Below the pieces are notes generated by a model, which did not search any database, was not told the origin of the DNA, and saw only the letters and a program-made list of their open reading frames with translations. 64,000 nucleotides of DNA, taken from a virus. Shown here piece by piece: positions 42,084 through 53,968 of the stretch. Each line of letters starts with the position of its first letter. Positions within the stretch are counted from its first letter, which is position 1. The translations under genes were made by a program, and so were the position numbers. The DNA is taken from positions 1 through 64,000 of IMG/VR virus record IMGVR_UViG_3300010354_000061. The stretch is one strand, 5' to 3'.

Positions 42084-42989
42084 TTACTCCTCTTCAGCAA
42101 GCTTCTTAAAGAAATCCATGTTGTCTTCATCTTCATCAAACGCCTGACTGAGTTCCTTTGCAGGTTTTGTTGGACGTGAAGGAGCAGACATTGTTTCTTC
42201 CTCAAGATCGGCAGCACGGCTGGTAGGCTTGGGTGCCGATCCATCAAGACAAAGAACCTTGTGAAGCTTTGCTTTGAGTTCGTCGTAGGACTTGAAATTC
42301 TTTGCATCAACAAACTCACCAAGCTTGTGCTGCTTGTTCCACAGATCTTCAAGCTCCTTATCGTTTTCCGAAATCGGGGCAGGAGAATCAAACTCTGACT
42401 TGTCGTAGTTACGATATCCCTCAACATTACGAATCTTGATCTTGAAATTAGCACCCTCCCACATATCAAACGGGTTGAGCGGCTTCTCATCTTCGAACTC
42501 AGGATTCATTGCAGCATTGAGCTTATCAAAGATCTTCTTACCGAACTTAAAAAGAAACACCTTACCTTCGTTAGCAGGATTAGCAGGATCCTTAACAACA
42601 AGGATGTTTGAAAAGAAATTCAAACGACGCTTCTGCTTACGAACTTGCTGCTTGTTGGATTCGATACCAGAATTCCATAACTGGGAATTGTACTCAGAAA
42701 CGGGATCCTTCTGACCAAGAGTAGTCAAAGACTTCTCGATGTACCATCCACCAGGACCCTGGAATCCATGATCCCACACACGGACGAACGGAACGTCTTC
42801 ACCGGACGGTGCAGGCAAGAAACGAATGACAGCATAGCCGTTACCAGACTTGTCGACTTCTGGATACCAGAAACGATTGTCTTCTTGCTGACCCTGTTGC
42901 TGTTTGGAATCGAGTTTGGAGACTTCTGAGACGAGCTTATCGAAATTCGACTGACGAGACTTCTTGAGCTGAGCAAAACTTGTAGACAT
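42084..42989 (-). CDS. 32: Single-stranded DNA-binding protein gp32
   Basis: A 301-residue protein, same length as T4 gp32. The N-terminal basic LAST-like stretch (LKKSRQSNFDKL), the core RFWYPEVDKSGNGYAVIRFL, VWDHGFQGPGGWYIEKSLTT and VVKDPANPANEGKVFLFKFG, and the acidic C-terminal tail (FDEDEDNMDFFKKLAEEE) all match. The zinc-binding Cys/His residues of T4 gp32 are missing, as I recall for other marine T4-like phages. It coats ssDNA in replication and interacts with gp59. It is convergent with the lysozyme gene, with no gap. Confidence 0.95.
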   Translation of the reverse strand: MSTSFAQLKKSRQSNFDKLVSEVSKLDSKQQQGQQEDNRFWYPEVDKSGNGYAVIRFLPAPSGEDVPFVRVWDHGFQGPGGWYIEKSLTTLGQKDPVSEYNSQLWNSGIESNKQQVRKQKRRLNFFSNILVVKDPANPANEGKVFLFKFGKKIFDKLNAAMNPEFEDEKPLNPFDMWEGANFKIKIRNVEGYRNYDKSEFDSPAPISENDKELEDLWNKQHKLGEFVDAKNFKSYDELKAKLHKVLCLDGSAPKPTSRAADLEEETMSAPSRPTKPAKELSQAFDEDEDNMDFFKKLAEEE

Positions 42990-43813: not shown

Positions 43814-44416
43814 TTATTTGTTATTTATGAAGCGGTCAATAGTGAGTTGGCGACACTTTTCATTGTTAAATCGCACGAATGGCTTATATTTATCAATTTT
43901 ACTTCTCACCTCTGGCCAAACAACACGATCATCAATATTTTTGCTCCAGTATTTAATGAATGGTGTAATACTGTCAAGTATAATAACTGTTTCAATACAC
44001 ACATCTTTTTGAAGATATAGTCTCAACAAAGTCGGATGTTGGCCGTCAATAACTTCGAAATTCTTGTTGTAGTTATCATCAAGCTTTGTAAGCTCATTTT
44101 GGTATTGGTAAGAGAGAGATTCTTGACGCTTGAGCCACTTCGCATACGTATTGTGTACCTTCATGTTTTCCATGAGATCACCAATCCACTGAGAAGGACC
44201 CAAGTCTACAAAGCTTGCAACAAGATATTGCTCTAGATTTTTTTGCTTGGAAAGCTTATAGAAAAAATACTTGTCTTTCCTGGTTTCAAAAGTAGCTGGC
44301 GTTACCTTTACGTGACCCTGATACTTAAAATAGTCGTATTTTGGGTTTGTAAAATGACTCTTTAACGCCAGATACTTTTTATATGCTTCAAAAGCTTCAG
44401 CCATTTCAGGCGACAT
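43814..44416 (-). CDS. 59: Helicase loader gp59
   Basis: A 200-residue protein matching T4 gp59 (217): KKYLALKSHFTNPKYDYFKY, FETRKDKYFFYKLSKQKNLE (T4 KRRDKYFFQKLSEKYKLKEL), SQWIGDLMENMKVHNTYAKW and LDSITPFIKYWSKNIDDRVV. gp59 recognises forks coated with gp32 and loads the gp41 helicase. Its start lies inside the end of the methyltransferase gene; a start four codons later is possible. Confidence 0.93.
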   Translation of the reverse strand: MSPEMAEAFEAYKKYLALKSHFTNPKYDYFKYQGHVKVTPATFETRKDKYFFYKLSKQKNLEQYLVASFVDLGPSQWIGDLMENMKVHNTYAKWLKRQESLSYQYQNELTKLDDNYNKNFEVIDGQHPTLLRLYLQKDVCIETVIILDSITPFIKYWSKNIDDRVVWPEVRSKIDKYKPFVRFNNEKCRQLTIDRFINNK

Positions 44417-45630: not shown

Positions 45631-46156
45631 AAAATATGTGCCTTCCTATTTTTCCAATTCGCTTTTTCTTCCAACCAGGGTTAACATAGTCAGCATGGTA
45701 GTATAATGCATCCTGTAAAAGTTCTAAACGGAAGTCCTCCAAAAGAACTTTCTTTGCTGCTATGTATGATTCCTCGTACGATTTTGTATTCGTAGGAGCT
45801 AAACTTGAAGGATGAAGACAGTGCCAGGAAAATTGGCAGACAGTCTTCGACATTAGCGTATCTTTCTGATAGACAACCTTGCAGATATCTTTAGGAAAGT
45901 GTGGGGAGTTCGACCTATTGATTGTAACTTGAGCTACAGCTACTTTACCCTCAAAAGATTCCACACCAGCCTCATGATAAACGTTTAGAGCTAAACACTT
46001 AAGTTGTCTTTCCCTCTCTGCTGCTGTTATAAACTCCTTACCTTGATACTTATTGGTGAAACGTGATATAGCAGAATTTGTGGCAACAAATCCAACAAAT
46101 AGTCCAATTGCCACACACGCGATCGTAGCGATCGCGCTGACGGTTCTTTGAGACAT
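45623..46156 (-). CDS. SleB-type cell wall hydrolase with membrane anchor
   Basis: A 177-residue protein. An N-terminal hydrophobic helix (TIACVAIGLFVGFVATNSA) acts as signal anchor. The catalytic domain shows the Hydrolase_2 (SleB/CwlJ) pattern: CLALNVYHEAGVESFEGKVA, VAQVTINRS, FPKDICKVVYQK and TVCQFSWHC. Glu in YHEA is the expected catalytic residue of this lytic transglycosylase-like family. It is probably the endolysin for host exit. AGAGGAA lies 8 bases before the ATG and right after the tmRNA gene. Confidence 0.88.
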   Translation of the reverse strand: MSQRTVSAIATIACVAIGLFVGFVATNSAISRFTNKYQGKEFITAAERERQLKCLALNVYHEAGVESFEGKVAVAQVTINRSNSPHFPKDICKVVYQKDTLMSKTVCQFSWHCLHPSSLAPTNTKSYEESYIAAKKVLLEDFRLELLQDALYYHADYVNPGWKKKRIGKIGRHIFYE

Positions 46157-46179
46157 TTTTGTTCCTCTGTTGTTAAAAA

Positions 46180-46468
46180 GAAAGAGGTGTTTCTGTTTCC
46201 AGGTACACCTCCGAAACCCAGATAGCCGATATTAGGCGGCCATCAGATAAGTGTCTTCATTGGCACTTATGATTTTGCGCTTTTACGGTAGTCGCCTTCC
46301 GGGTTGCCATATAGCCATACTCCCTGCCCGTCGAAACCAATTCAGGCCCATCAGAAGCATACTATTCTTGATTTAATCAAGTGCCTTCGTTAGGGTCTGC
46401 AATAGTGTGCTTTTGGTGGACCTGCCCGGAATTGAACCGGGGTCCGAACAGCTTTCTTTCTACACAGT
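46180..46468 (-). ncRNA. ssrA: Circularly permuted two-piece tmRNA (ssrA)
   Basis: Minus strand. The acceptor piece (about 46468-46414) ends in TTCGGACCCCGGTTCAATTC, CGGG, CAGGTCC and A-CCA: a T-arm with loop TTCAATT and an encoded CCA. The coding piece starts at 46349 with GGGCCTGAATTGGTTTCGAC; GGGCCTG pairs with CAGGTCC (one G-U) to rebuild the acceptor stem. The tag frame starts at GCC (46264) and ends TAA (46232), giving ANEDTYLMAA after the charged Ala. GATGGCCG and CGGCTATC form helix 5 round the stop, and CTGGGTTTC/GGAAACAG with AGGTGT/ACACCT makes a pseudoknot. The spacer 46350-46413 has a stem (AGCACACTATT/AATAGTATGCT) that would bring the ends together for processing. tmRNA rescues stalled ribosomes and tags their products for proteolysis. 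Confidence 0.92.
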
Positions 46469-46627
46469 TTACAACCATTCACCTACAGTGAGGCCCTTTT
46501 CCGTGGCCCACTTGTTAGCCTCTTCCATATGTTCAAAGACAGGGCTTGCTAAAGTGTCTTCCTCATTAACCCAAAACCATATGTCAGCGTGGCTCATACC
46601 ATCGTTGTACTTTATAAGTTTCAACAT
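46469..46627 (-). CDS. Small protein (52 residues) upstream of tmRNA
   Basis: ATG at 46627 to TAA at 46469, 52 residues: acidic, with three tryptophans in its middle and C-terminal parts (ADIWFWVNEEDT, EEANKWATEKGLTVGEWL). It resembles the many small acidic phage proteins in early operons. No strong ribosome site is visible (GAAATAAT). The stop directly abuts the tmRNA acceptor piece, so the RNA may be processed from the same transcript. Confidence 0.6.
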   Translation of the reverse strand: MLKLIKYNDGMSHADIWFWVNEEDTLASPVFEHMEEANKWATEKGLTVGEWL

Positions 46628-46662: not shown

Positions 46663-47193
46663 TTATCTTAAAAACGTCGGTACAGGCCGTTTAGACCATT
46701 TTGCTAAGTGTTCCTTACCGTACTTGTAGTAGTTACGATAAGAGACGATTGAACTGCCTTTAACTTTGTAGTCATTAGGCATTGCCGGTGTTGGTTCTGT
46801 AAAATGGCTGTTAGGAATATTGGTTGGCAAGTTTGCTAAAGGACCAAGCAGTGCGGATGATTTGTGTTGCCTACCGTAACGAAACGTGTATTCATCCAAT
46901 AAGCACTCAAACAACCGATACAGCCACTGATAATTGCTGCTAGCCGAACGCACCCACAAAGCAGAAGGATGTTTCATATGAGCAGCTTCATAGATTGTTG
47001 AGTCTCGCTCGTCGTTTAACTTCCACCTAACAACAGTTTTCTTTCCTGTCTTGGTGGTGTACGGCTTGCCATCCAACACACGATGAGCTGTAGAAAGCAA
47101 TTGTGCGTACTCAACAATCATCTTCACACAATGCTTGTCATTATGCATTTCTGCACAACGACGTTGATCGTGGTCGAGATAGAAGATGTTCAC
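46663..47193 (-). CDS. Conserved phage protein, unknown (MNIFYLDHD family)
   Basis: A 176-residue protein starting MNIFYLDHDQRRCAEMHNDK, then HCVKMIVEYAQLLSTAHRVL and HMKHPSALWVRSASSNYQWL. I recall this as a common protein in T4-like and other large phages, without proven function. The His/Asp/Cys-rich start and paired helices suggest an enzyme or nucleic-acid protein, which is inference. Overlaps the upstream 63-residue gene by 4 bases. Confidence 0.8.
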   Translation of the reverse strand: MNIFYLDHDQRRCAEMHNDKHCVKMIVEYAQLLSTAHRVLDGKPYTTKTGKKTVVRWKLNDERDSTIYEAAHMKHPSALWVRSASSNYQWLYRLFECLLDEYTFRYGRQHKSSALLGPLANLPTNIPNSHFTEPTPAMPNDYKVKGSSIVSYRNYYKYGKEHLAKWSKRPVPTFLR

Positions 47194-47487: not shown

Positions 47488-48447
47488 TTAAGCCGCGTTG
47501 GCGTACTCAACAGCAGTTTCAAGGGCTTTGATCTTGAGGTTGCGGTTCTGACCAAACCAAGCAGACTTGAGACGCGTATCGTTCGAACGACCAATCTCAT
47601 GATCAGTGAGGAAGGTAACAGCATTGAACGCATTCCACCAAGTACCACGAGCAAACTCAGCACCAGGCTGGGCTTCAACAATCTCGACAGCTCGTGCTGC
47701 AGACTTCGACAGCTCTTTCTTGCTTTGTTCTTTCTGCGTGATTACAGGGAACACTGAAGACATATACTCTTTGAGCTTTTGTTCCGTGTACTTCTTGACA
47801 CCGAGGAACTCGGCCATCTCCTTATACTTCGCCAGCTTGTTGCTAGCGATACCAAGCGTTTCCTTAGCAGTGTTAGCATCAAACACACGACGATGCGATT
47901 GCTTAAACACTTGTTCAGAGCGAGAGTTAATAGCGAGAGTCAAGGTGTTATTACACACTACACGGATCGGTGTAAACCGAATGTCGATCCCCTGACCAAA
48001 CTTGTGGGGATTGGTAAACAGTAGATAGGATTCAACCGTGTCCTTCTTGAACACAGTAAAGCCATCGTTTACCTTAGCAAGCGCCCACACAATACGACCA
48101 CCATCGAGCGAGCCAGCAGTGTGCATTTGCATGTCACCAGCTTCGACAAACTCACTAAAGAAATCAAACGCGTCTTGGTTCTGCACAGGGTTCCAGTCGT
48201 TCGACACAACACCAAGAACCTTGTGGTCAGTCATCCGAGTAAGAGCAGACCAGCCGACAGAAACCTTCTTACCGTCGATAGTTGAATATGCAGGAATTTT
48301 TTGAACTTCCCAATCAAGCTCGGCAGCTTTGAGCATTTGGTCGGTCGAGAGATCAGCAGGAACTTCTTTACCAAGCCCATGCCACGGCACCTCGCCAGCA
48401 TAGGCCATTTTTGCAACACCATTCACAATTTCAAGTTTGTGTGCCAT
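47488..48447 (-). CDS. DUF932-type phage/plasmid protein
   Basis: A 319-residue protein starting MAHKLEIVNGVAKMAYAGEV, PWHGLGKEV, then GWSALTRMTDHKVLGVVSND, WNPVQNQDAFDFFSEFVEAG and DIRFTPIRVVCNNTLTLAIN. This is the DUF932/TIGR03299 family common on phages and plasmids; function unknown, sometimes linked to host-takeover or anti-restriction neighbourhoods. It has its own promoter (48489-48517) and terminator (47444-47474), so it is a single-gene unit, probably strongly expressed early. Confidence 0.88.
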   Translation of the reverse strand: MAHKLEIVNGVAKMAYAGEVPWHGLGKEVPADLSTDQMLKAAELDWEVQKIPAYSTIDGKKVSVGWSALTRMTDHKVLGVVSNDWNPVQNQDAFDFFSEFVEAGDMQMHTAGSLDGGRIVWALAKVNDGFTVFKKDTVESYLLFTNPHKFGQGIDIRFTPIRVVCNNTLTLAINSRSEQVFKQSHRRVFDANTAKETLGIASNKLAKYKEMAEFLGVKKYTEQKLKEYMSSVFPVITQKEQSKKELSKSAARAVEIVEAQPGAEFARGTWWNAFNAVTFLTDHEIGRSNDTRLKSAWFGQNRNLKIKALETAVEYANAA

Positions 48448-50107: not shown

Positions 50108-51094
50108 TTAACAGTTAGCTACAACTTCACTACCTTTGTCGTAAAATTGGAAATCATATATTTTACACTCAGTACCTTCTGTCACAGCACTCATAACGTC
50201 ACTACGCTTATCTTTCTTAACGTAAAAGATAAAAAACCCGCCACCACCGGCACCCAACAACTTACCACCCAAAGCACCGGCCTCGATAGCCTTGTTGTAA
50301 ACATTATCGAAGTAGTCGTTACTGATAGACTCCACGATTGTTTTCTTAGTTTGCCATCCCTCGTGAAACAAATGACCAATGTCATCAAACTGACCGTTCA
50401 AAATACTGTTGTAAGCTTGATATGCCTTATCTCTGTTGGCTCTTACTTTATCGAACTTACTCTTATCAATAAGTGAGTCGCGCTGCTTCTGAAGAATGCT
50501 GTTTGCTGATCTTCCTCGACCGCTATACACAAGAAGGAGATTTTGATTGAATTCAAACATCCGTTGGTCGTTGATATTAACAGCAGTGTTGGTTACTGAT
50601 CCGTCAGTATGAAACTCAAATAAATTCATACCACCAAAGGCAGCTGCATACTGATCCTGCTTGCCTATTGGATACCCACATCGATCTATTTCAATCTCAC
50701 AGGCAACATCAGCTAGATATTGTTTCGTAATGTGACCCCACCGAAGAGTTGCGAGAGCGTTTACAAGACCTACAGTAAACGTTGATGAAGAACCAAGACC
50801 TGACCCTTTAGAAAGAATGTCTGATATAGAGGCAACAGTAATTTCTTTCTTGTAGTTAAAGTATGTGAACGCTTCTTTAGAAATTTCATGCTGCATTGTT
50901 TCAACATCGGGTGTTTCCTCAATCTTGTCATACATTGCTTTGATGCCAAGATGGGGAGTTCGGTGAACACAAACATAAACAAACTTATCAATTGTAACAG
51001 ACAACGCTGCTCCCTTCTCTTTCTCATAGAAAGAGCTCATATCGCTGCCTCCACTAAAGAGGCTCATACGGAGAGGAGTTTTAGTGACTATCAT
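50108..51094 (-). CDS. hddA: GHMP kinase, heptose 7-phosphate kinase (HddA-like)
   Basis: A 328-residue protein of the GHMP kinase family: MIVTKTPLRMSLFSGGSDMS at the start, ILSKGSGLGSSSTFTVGLVN (ATP-binding GLGSSS loop) near residue 95, CGYPIGKQDQYAAAFGGMN, and KLLGAGGGGFFIFYV near the C-terminus. The Q-D-Q-Y and GAGGGGF motifs fit the D-glycero-D-manno-heptose 7-phosphate 1-kinase branch. It would phosphorylate heptose 7-phosphate made by the SIS isomerase encoded upstream. It overlaps the transaldolase gene by 4 bases. Confidence 0.85.
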   Translation of the reverse strand: MIVTKTPLRMSLFSGGSDMSSFYEKEKGAALSVTIDKFVYVCVHRTPHLGIKAMYDKIEETPDVETMQHEISKEAFTYFNYKKEITVASISDILSKGSGLGSSSTFTVGLVNALATLRWGHITKQYLADVACEIEIDRCGYPIGKQDQYAAAFGGMNLFEFHTDGSVTNTAVNINDQRMFEFNQNLLLVYSGRGRSANSILQKQRDSLIDKSKFDKVRANRDKAYQAYNSILNGQFDDIGHLFHEGWQTKKTIVESISNDYFDNVYNKAIEAGALGGKLLGAGGGGFFIFYVKKDKRSDVMSAVTEGTECKIYDFQFYDKGSEVVANC

Positions 51095-51828
51095 AGTTTA
51101 ATGTTGAAACCCGACTTAACAGCATCATCATAGAACATCTTTACCGTTTCGTAGGAAAACTGAGTAAGATCTTTACCAAACGTGTTAAGTTTCTTGATTA
51201 GTTGGGGGGTCATTGTAATGATATCGCAGCCGCACAGTTCAGCTTGGATAAAGTTGAATGGTTCACGAGGGGAAGCCCACAATGTTTGAATGTTACCATT
51301 CACGAAGCTGACATGACCAAGAACAGCAACGGCGTGTCTTACAATACCAACAGGATCGACACCGGCATCGGCAATCCGTCCAGCAAAAATAGAAATGATT
51401 CCTTTTACGTTCGGATCAAGAGCTGCCGCAACGTTCTCAATTTGTTCTTTTGTAAAGACAGCTGTGACGTTACAATTTACACCAAGACGAGAAAGATCTT
51501 GAACCAAATCGTAAGTAGCAACTCGTTGTGTGTTCATTACAGGAATCTTAACATATACACGATACTTCTTCATTGCGCCCCACGACTGAATTTTTATTGC
51601 TTGCTGATGCATAACATCTAAGTCATCATCAAACACTTCAAGGCTTAAGCATGTTTCAGGTCGTGTGCTGGCTAGGTAGTCAATGCACTCATTAGCAAAC
51701 ACTTCATAATCAGTTACGCCAGCTTGGCGCATTAGAGTTGGATTAGTGGTGAAGCCAACGATTCGCGGATCATTTGCCGCTTGCTTGATCCCTTCCATGT
51801 CTGCACCATCTGCAAATAATTTAATCAT
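51091..51828 (-). CDS. talC: Transaldolase/fructose-6-phosphate aldolase family
   Basis: A 245-residue protein: MIKLFADGADMEGIKQAAND, VGFTTNPTLMRQAGVTDY (conserved TTNP motif), MKKYRVYVKIPVMN (K in VKIP is the expected Schiff-base lysine), NVTAVFTKEQ and SIFAGRIADAGVDPV. Marine cyanophages carry similar small transaldolases. Here the gene is embedded between heptose kinase and phosphatase genes with overlaps of 4 and 8 bases, so its likely task is to set the supply of sedoheptulose 7-phosphate for heptose synthesis. Confidence 0.9.
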   Translation of the reverse strand: MIKLFADGADMEGIKQAANDPRIVGFTTNPTLMRQAGVTDYEVFANECIDYLASTRPETCLSLEVFDDDLDVMHQQAIKIQSWGAMKKYRVYVKIPVMNTQRVATYDLVQDLSRLGVNCNVTAVFTKEQIENVAAALDPNVKGIISIFAGRIADAGVDPVGIVRHAVAVLGHVSFVNGNIQTLWASPREPFNFIQAELCGCDIITMTPQLIKKLNTFGKDLTQFSYETVKMFYDDAVKSGFNIKL

Positions 51829-52363
51829 AACTACACTCCTTTTGATTTATTATATAGCATGCCTCAAGTACATTGGCAACAACAAAATTAGGTTTTATTG
51901 ATTCAAACTCTTCTGGAGGTGTATATGGACCGTTGCTTACATAGAATGTTGTTAGCCCACTCCTATGACCGCACACTATATCTCGCCAGCTATCTCCAAT
52001 TAGAAAGCTCTCATTACGATTGATGTTATATTGCCTACACAGCTTGTCAACCATCCCCGTGTTTGGTTTATAGCAATCCGCTCCACGTTCCTTGCAATAC
52101 GTAATAGAATCAACACCCAACCGCTCATCGAGAATCTCATGCATTGTATCTAACGCTCGTTGAGTCATTAGATTATCATTAATGTCAGGCTGGTTTGTTA
52201 TGACGTGAGCTTGGAAACCCATTGCCTTGCAAAGCTTCACGGCTGCTCTTGCCTCTGAAATAATTTCAAACTCTTCAACAAGCCAAGCAGCCGTATAACG
52301 ATCGCCGTGCTTGACCATCTTTGCAAGCACACCATCACGATCAAAAAATATAGCTTTTACCAC
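51821..52363 (-). CDS. gmhB: HAD phosphatase, heptose bisphosphate phosphatase (GmhB-like)
   Basis: A 180-residue HAD-IIIA protein: AIFFDRDGVLAKMVKHG (nucleophile DxD), AHVITNQPDINDNLMT (motif II region, TNQ), YKPNTGMVDKLC (conserved Lys) and SFLIGDSWRDIVCGHRSGLT (motif IV). GmhB usually binds zinc through a Cys-x-His ... Cys-x-Cys loop; here only a shortened YCKERGADCYKP remains, so zinc binding is probably lost or changed. Predicted to remove the 7-phosphate from heptose 1,7-bisphosphate. Confidence 0.82.
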   Translation of the reverse strand: MVKAIFFDRDGVLAKMVKHGDRYTAAWLVEEFEIISEARAAVKLCKAMGFQAHVITNQPDINDNLMTQRALDTMHEILDERLGVDSITYCKERGADCYKPNTGMVDKLCRQYNINRNESFLIGDSWRDIVCGHRSGLTTFYVSNGPYTPPEEFESIKPNFVVANVLEACYIINQKECSYD

Positions 52364-52941
52364 GTCGTCTTTTTAACTTGCAGCTTGGGATGGGAAACGA
52401 TACAGTGCCAAACAACTGCTTGGAATGCTTCGCTGTGAGGAGTAACTCGTTCTGGGAATAATTCAGGCACTACTACAACATTGTCGCCGTTCAGTGCAGT
52501 GTAACCAGATCCTTTTCCAACAACCCCACAGACAGTAGCATGGCACTGCTTTGCATATTTAATTGCGTTGATAAGGTTCATAGAGATCTTGCGCTCTTCA
52601 GAACCTCCACCTACAGAAAAGATAAGCAGGCAATCGCTGGCAGTGAGATTACTTGTACGAAGATATGCTTCGAAGATAGTTTCAAAGCCATCATCGTTTG
52701 TACGTGCTGTAAGTTCAGAAACGTTGTCCGTAGGAGCATATGCCTCTATACCACAGAGCTTACGAAAGTCATTAACAGCATGGGAGGCATTACCAGCTGA
52801 TCCTCCAACACCCAGAACGAACAGTCGTCCCTTTCGCGTGCGGACAAGGGCCAACGCATCGACAATACTTTCTATTTTTTCTTTGGAGATTGTTTTTGCA
52901 ATTTGTTCAACTTCAGTAAAAAATTGTTCGCTAAAGCTCAT
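52357..52941 (-). CDS. gmhA: SIS-domain sedoheptulose 7-phosphate isomerase (GmhA-like)
   Basis: A 194-residue SIS protein: RLFVLGVGGSAGNASHAVND (GmhA has GNGGSxxDAxH), DNVSELTARTNDDGFETIFE, CLLIFSVGGGSEERKISMNL, FPERVTPHSEAFQAVVWHCI. Length and motif order match GmhA, which converts sedoheptulose 7-phosphate to D-glycero-D-manno-heptose 7-phosphate. First gene of the operon; a TATAAATA late promoter lies 75 bases upstream. Confidence 0.85.
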   Translation of the reverse strand: MSFSEQFFTEVEQIAKTISKEKIESIVDALALVRTRKGRLFVLGVGGSAGNASHAVNDFRKLCGIEAYAPTDNVSELTARTNDDGFETIFEAYLRTSNLTASDCLLIFSVGGGSEERKISMNLINAIKYAKQCHATVCGVVGKGSGYTALNGDNVVVVPELFPERVTPHSEAFQAVVWHCIVSHPKLQVKKTTW

Positions 52942-53883: not shown

Positions 53884-53968
53884 TGGTACCCGAGGCGGGA
53901 CTCGAACCCACAAGGCCAAAGCCGGCAGATTTTAAGTCTGCTGTGTATACCATTCCACCACTCGGGCA
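53884..53968 (-). tRNA. tRNA-Leu (anticodon UAA)
   Basis: An 85-base tRNA on the minus strand: acceptor TGCCCGAG... pairs with ...CTCGGGTA followed by encoded CCA; anticodon stem GCAGA/TCTGC with loop CTTAAAA (anticodon TAA); a long variable arm as in class II tRNAs; T-arm GTGGGTTCGAGTCCCGC. It reads UUA, a codon favoured in AT-rich late genes. Own promoter at 53977-54005. Confidence 0.95.

Follow-up and report, generated by a model that had tools for sequence, protein, structure and literature searches.

A phage gene predicted to encode a circularly permuted tmRNA of betaproteobacterial type with its own tag peptide

Does a phage bring its own ribosome-rescue RNA into the infected cell? This question was raised by a short locus in a viral DNA stretch of 64,000 nucleotides (positions 1 to 64,000 of the IMG/VR record IMGVR_UViG_3300010354_000061; hereafter, the window), where positions 46180-46468 had been predicted from the letters of the DNA to hold a circularly permuted tmRNA with its own tag peptide. 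ARAGORN called a single permuted tmRNA at 46141-46506 on the minus strand with the tag ANEDTYLMAA*. The Rfam covariance-model search that had been proposed as a check was conducted, and two models matched the minus strand above their cut-offs: RF04321 (tmRNA_permuted) at 46232-46476 (141.2 bits, cut-off 47, E 1e-27) and RF01850 (beta_tmRNA) at 46160-46541 (124.2 bits, cut-off 84, E 2.3e-37), the latter model being covered end to end. Together with the structure drawn by hand, these results place a whole permuted tmRNA on the minus strand from 46476 to about 46184 and bear out the prediction of such a gene in the phage, except that the true start lies about 8 nt farther upstream than first given.

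RF04321 is a merger of the alpha, beta, and cyano permuted models (PMC11915505), and among these three older models, beta was the match listed for the window tmRNA. The original prediction had named alphaproteobacteria and cyanobacteria as the lineages with two-piece tmRNA, but it omitted Betaproteobacteria, whose model RF01850 fits the window gene. Judged by this fit, the window tmRNA is of betaproteobacterial type. In a phylogenetic tree, it joined three Burkholderiales genes on a long branch and weakly (SH-aLRT 80). The nearest relative found was 67% identical, the nearest copy by identity was not a bacterial ssrA, and DNA similarity to annotated phages was limited to a 29-nt match. Based on the tree placement and the Rfam model, we infer that the host is betaproteobacterial.

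The stems and the piece boundaries were paired by hand on the window sequence, the two pieces being also delimited by Rfam. As predicted, an acceptor piece with a T arm and CCA lies upstream of the coding piece, in permuted order. The acceptor piece (46476-46414, minus strand; 63 nt, GGUUGUAAACUGUGUAGAAAGAAAGCUGUUCGGACCCCGGUUCAAUUCCGGGCAGGUCCACCA) contains half of helix 2, the T arm, and the 3' strand of the acceptor stem, and ends in the encoded CCA. It is followed by an intervening segment of 64 nt (46413-46350), a spacer of the kind that is removed in permuted tmRNAs, and then by the coding piece, which starts at 46349 and whose exact 3' end was deduced to be at about 46184. The coding piece comprises the acceptor 5' strand GGGCCUG, a D-loop-like GGUUUCGAC, helix 2, the first pseudoknot region, the tag, helix 5, and the 3' pseudoknot. 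The acceptor stem GGGCCUG/CAGGUCC was paired at 7/7 positions including G3.U70, the T stem at 5/5, and helix 2 (CUGUUCG/CGGGCAG) at 7/7, with an extension CUGUGUAG/CUAUAUGG paired at 8/8 with wobbles and then GGUUG/CAACC at 5/5. The ends of the spacer also pair at 11/12 positions by hand pairing, prolonging the acceptor stem of the precursor, and no meaningful open reading frame was found in the window spacer.

The tag reading frame (46232-46264, minus strand; ARAGORN and hand reading) begins with the resume codon GCC, preceded by U at -5 and A at -4, and its codons GCC AAU GAA GAC ACU UAU CUG AUG GCC GCC UAA give ANEDTYLMAA and a stop. Helix 5 (GAUGGCCG/CGGCUAUC; 46221-46244, minus strand) carries the UAA stop in its loop, and in the 3' pseudoknot (46184-46221, minus strand; drawn by hand) CUGGGU pairs with ACCUGG across the GAGGUGU/ACACCUC hairpin. 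Hence the acceptor stem, helix 5 with the stop in its loop, the pseudoknot, and the tag frame named in the original prediction could all be drawn on the window sequence. G3.U70 is the pair read by alanyl-tRNA synthetase; this pair, the discriminator A (A73), and CCA make up the alanine identity set present in the window tmRNA.

The source record comprises 78,847 bases (classed linear, 42% G+C) and encodes the T4-type proteins gp32, gp59, tail tube, baseplate wedge, DNA end protector, and a gp33-type coactivator; the source phage is a T4-like myovirus. The neighboring genes named here all lie on the strand of the tmRNA. Upstream are a DUF932 protein (47488-48447), which is a conserved neighbor, a phrog_624 protein (46663-47193), and a small open reading frame of 52 aa (46469-46627), whose last codons share 8 nt with the start of the acceptor piece. 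Directly behind the tmRNA is a cell wall hydrolase (PF07486; 45623-46156), whose start is at 46156 and whose ribosome-binding site, an AGAGGA box, lies in the tmRNA trailer, followed by the gp33-type late-transcription coactivator (PF16805; 45035-45418), the gp59 helicase loader (43814-44416), and the gp32 single-strand DNA-binding protein (42084-42989). Elsewhere in the window, a GHMP kinase, a transaldolase, and two unnamed neighbors stand in a row (50108-52941, minus strand) as possible phage-carried sugar-metabolism genes, and ARAGORN found a tRNA-Leu (UAA) at 53884-53967 (minus strand) as the sole tRNA.

A search with the gp32 protein gave 80 IMG/VR loci. In most of the loci compared, the same order recurred on one strand, namely DUF932 (or phrog_624), tmRNA, cell-wall hydrolase, gp33, sometimes a methyltransferase, gp59, and gp32. 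This placement in a conserved T4-like operon further bears out a phage-encoded tmRNA with its own tag. RF04321 was above cut-off in 22 of 42 gp32-related records, many of which are fragments; because about half of the related records show none, the tmRNA can be regarded as no more than a common accessory gene among these phages. More widely, 100 of 131 phage permuted tmRNAs have an upstream open reading frame of at least 40 codons whose end falls in the interval from about 60 nt before the acceptor piece to 10 nt inside it, and therefore phage permuted tmRNA genes are embedded in operons.

We consider it highly probable that the locus encodes a working permuted tmRNA of betaproteobacterial type. 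Its gene, structure, frame, synteny, and conservation were computed, and from these we infer its transcription, processing, charging, tagging, and benefit as follows. The tmRNA would be transcribed within the operon leading to gp33, gp59, and gp32, and once host tRNA-processing enzymes had cut out the 64-nt spacer, a piece of about 63 nt and another of about 166 nt would stay joined through the acceptor stem and helix 2. Charging of the tmRNA, through G3.U70, A73, and CCA, would fall to the alanyl-tRNA synthetase of the host. No SmpB gene was found in the 78.8-kb phage fragment, and therefore host SmpB would have to serve; with it, the charged tmRNA could enter ribosomes stalled on broken mRNA, where alanine and ANEDTYLMAA would be appended before the ribosome terminates. 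The likely benefit would be that ribosomes stay available during the destruction of host mRNA, with a phage-type tag ending replacing that of the host.

Next, we consider this ending. The first ARAGORN survey of relatives gave the endings LMAA and LAAA alongside ALAA, and the LMAA of the window tag is neither ALAA nor a close bacterial variant. One genome per species was screened for tags of 10 residues carrying Met at -3 across 84,980 bacterial and archaeal species, and 57 loci with such an xMAA tag were obtained. The residue at -4 was Ala, Pro, or Val in 56 of them, and the 57th, in Pantoea (L249), represents the enterobacterial phage element described below rather than an ordinary tmRNA. 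In viral contigs, the pattern used for the species screen matched at least 119 loci, 49 of those listed being that element. Among the matches listed, Leu stood at -4 in 52 of the remaining 70 viral loci (counted by hand) versus 0 of the 56 bacterial ones, counts that include near-copies and describe a contrast, not a rate. LMAA is a phage-typical tag ending that was not seen among the bacterial 10-residue tags scanned. Other tag forms were also observed: the tags predicted for some phage permuted tmRNAs (L133, L157, L163, L167, L193, L131, and L212) are long, at 28 to 31 residues, and conserved, e.g., ANADTFDFSAMSFTGNTVSGKSKVALAA, and a Gallionellaceae genome (L285) carries a standard tmRNA (ANDEKYALAA) beside a permuted one (ANDENFAMAA), at 819-1188 and 1471-1802.

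The enterobacterial phage element is separate from the finding in the window. It is a conserved element of about 190 nt, in which a tmRNA-like resume context, a tag, a hairpin, and an H-type pseudoknot come in succession (L318, 920-1140; L319; L457 in phage HK620, 1500-1780; L459, 600-760; L460 to L463). Its tags include ANDDVVLMAA, ANDNTFLAVA, and ANEEMYLAVA, mostly with L at -4, and a 10-residue tag was kept in 52 of 52 members of a set gathered without using the tag. Felixounavirus (ANDNVFLAVA) and Kuttervirus (ANDNTFLAVA) both retain the element, with a DNA identity of about 71%, and the tag in Erwinia phage phiEa2809 is ANDNEFKVAA. In an alignment with the pairing read by eye, the second stem of the pseudoknot varied on both sides. 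The element, which is mostly unannotated, matched 719-744 phage records and was present in 709 of 5,426 E. coli genomes. The HK620 copy is located in the late leader, flanked by qut and tQ. The Rfam search of the element gave scores below cut-off only, and neither a tRNA-like domain nor a common T arm with CCA was found among the members. That the enterobacterial LMAA matches are the C-termini of proteins was ruled out, as the frames upstream of them span only some 7 codons. No account of this element turned up in a brief literature search.

These observations raise the tentative idea, which we hold with less than even confidence, that a separate class of trans-translation tag, ending in L-M-A-A and also L-A-A-A, evolved in phages, arose there repeatedly, is unused by bacteria, has the window tmRNA as one instance, and changes the handling of tagged proteins during infection. 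A related explanation, that the phage tmRNA competes with the host tmRNA and that LMAA is an altered degron with another rate or protease, to the advantage of the phage, appears somewhat doubtful. It draws on the contrast at -4 among the xMAA tags listed, on the L at the same position in the tags of the enterobacterial element, and on the tmRNA tree, where the LMAA state underwent at least 15 changes, 8 of them forced by starred branches (tag codons left out, quick method). Against it, the final two alanines count most in the contacts with ClpX, the third-last residue and the tyrosine position having modest effects (PMC7652416). Because ClpX mainly reads the two alanines that LMAA keeps, LMAA is probably still a degron. 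The earlier suggestion that host or phage proteases treat the tag differently gains circumstantial weight from the phage-typical ending and loses some from the retained alanines. This ending makes the question of why phages carry a ribosome-rescue RNA testable through the fate of LMAA- versus ALAA-tagged proteins.

Could the gene instead be a passive, functionless relic of a host ssrA gained by recombination? Phages often integrate at ssrA or acquire pieces of it (PMC9004378), but the window gene is complete, its position is conserved across many divergent phages, and a bacterial ssrA is not its nearest copy. Furthermore, its determinants are those kept across 111 distinct phage permuted tmRNAs, which were found by ARAGORN or patterns and form a sample favoring well-formed genes. 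In these, G3.U70 was kept in 104, and the discriminator A and the A at -4 before the resume codon in all 111. Acceptor pairs 4 and 5 varied on both sides (GC, CG, and AU types) and were still paired in 109 and 106 of the 111, respectively. The window tmRNA is diverged, with at most 67% identity and a long branch, yet its stems are paired and every determinant is kept, which makes a relic very unlikely. In a scan covering 300 genomes of a single order, the candidates scored per genome were few, so that the low count of permuted tmRNAs there does not represent a frequency.

It is likewise very unlikely that the RNA inhibits host trans-translation or acts as a decoy for it. The precedent is the tmRNA form of phage DS6A, which is also phage-borne but has no tag frame and is reported to inhibit the endogenous host tmRNA in E. 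coli (PMC11915505). The tag frame in the window, however, is intact with its resume codon and stop in place, and the relatives called by ARAGORN also have tag frames. Chance similarity or misassembled host DNA in a viral contig is extremely improbable given E-values of 1e-27 and 2e-37 and phage genes on both flanks in the same order in other independent contigs. The preferred reading is that of a working phage tmRNA.

The spacers of related phage tmRNAs deserve separate mention. Their median length is 85 nt versus 31 nt in bacteria, the 64 nt of the window spacer also exceeding the bacterial median. Some of them (L043, L134, L115, L026, L153, L214, L384, L201, L108, L159, L171, and others) hold an open reading frame between the acceptor CCA and the coding piece, ending at a TGA one base before the latter; because the pattern used to pick part of these loci has the TGA built in, the open frame counts as evidence and the TGA itself does not. 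Seven spacer frames of at least 50 codons were observed versus about 0.03 expected from dinucleotide shuffles. Homologous 52-aa proteins occur in four loci (L026, L153, L214, and L384), and a dN/dS of about 0.15 to 0.25 among the three closer ones indicates that this family is under purifying selection. Many shorter frames of 22 to 27 residues resemble single transmembrane segments.

Finally, the window tmRNA was compared with known systems. With the bacterial tmRNAs of RF01850, it has the permuted order, the pseudoknot, and helix 5 in common, whereas permuted bacterial tags were observed to end in ALAA, AIAA, or AMAA. In a published survey, tmRNA was present in 402 of 18,146 phage genomes, and the two-piece form accounted for 53 of its 133 distinct tmRNA structures (PMC9004378). 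Among isolates, no match was obtained in Sinorhizobium phage phiM12 or Caulobacter phage Cr30. The SsrA of Methylophilales phage Melnitz (MZ577097, 45984-46436; PMC9004378), a T4-like myovirus, is likewise permuted and in two pieces and precedes gp33, gp59, and gp32. It differs in being of alphaproteobacterial type with the tag ANDNYVPVDYALAA, whereas the window tmRNA fits the beta model and ends in LMAA; unlike at the window locus, a glutamine riboswitch was reported in Melnitz. The SsrA of Pelagibacter phage Mosig (MT647606, 111467-111805) is also permuted and lies at the same locus upstream of gp33, gp59, and gp32, with the tag GEDNFALAA instead of ANEDTYLMAA. Given these two annotated genes of cultured phages at the same locus and the phage survey, the phage permuted tmRNA is therefore already published as a kind, and the window gene is another example, of betaproteobacterial type. 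The phage tmRNA at the gp33 locus now includes this type and is common among uncultivated T4-like phages.
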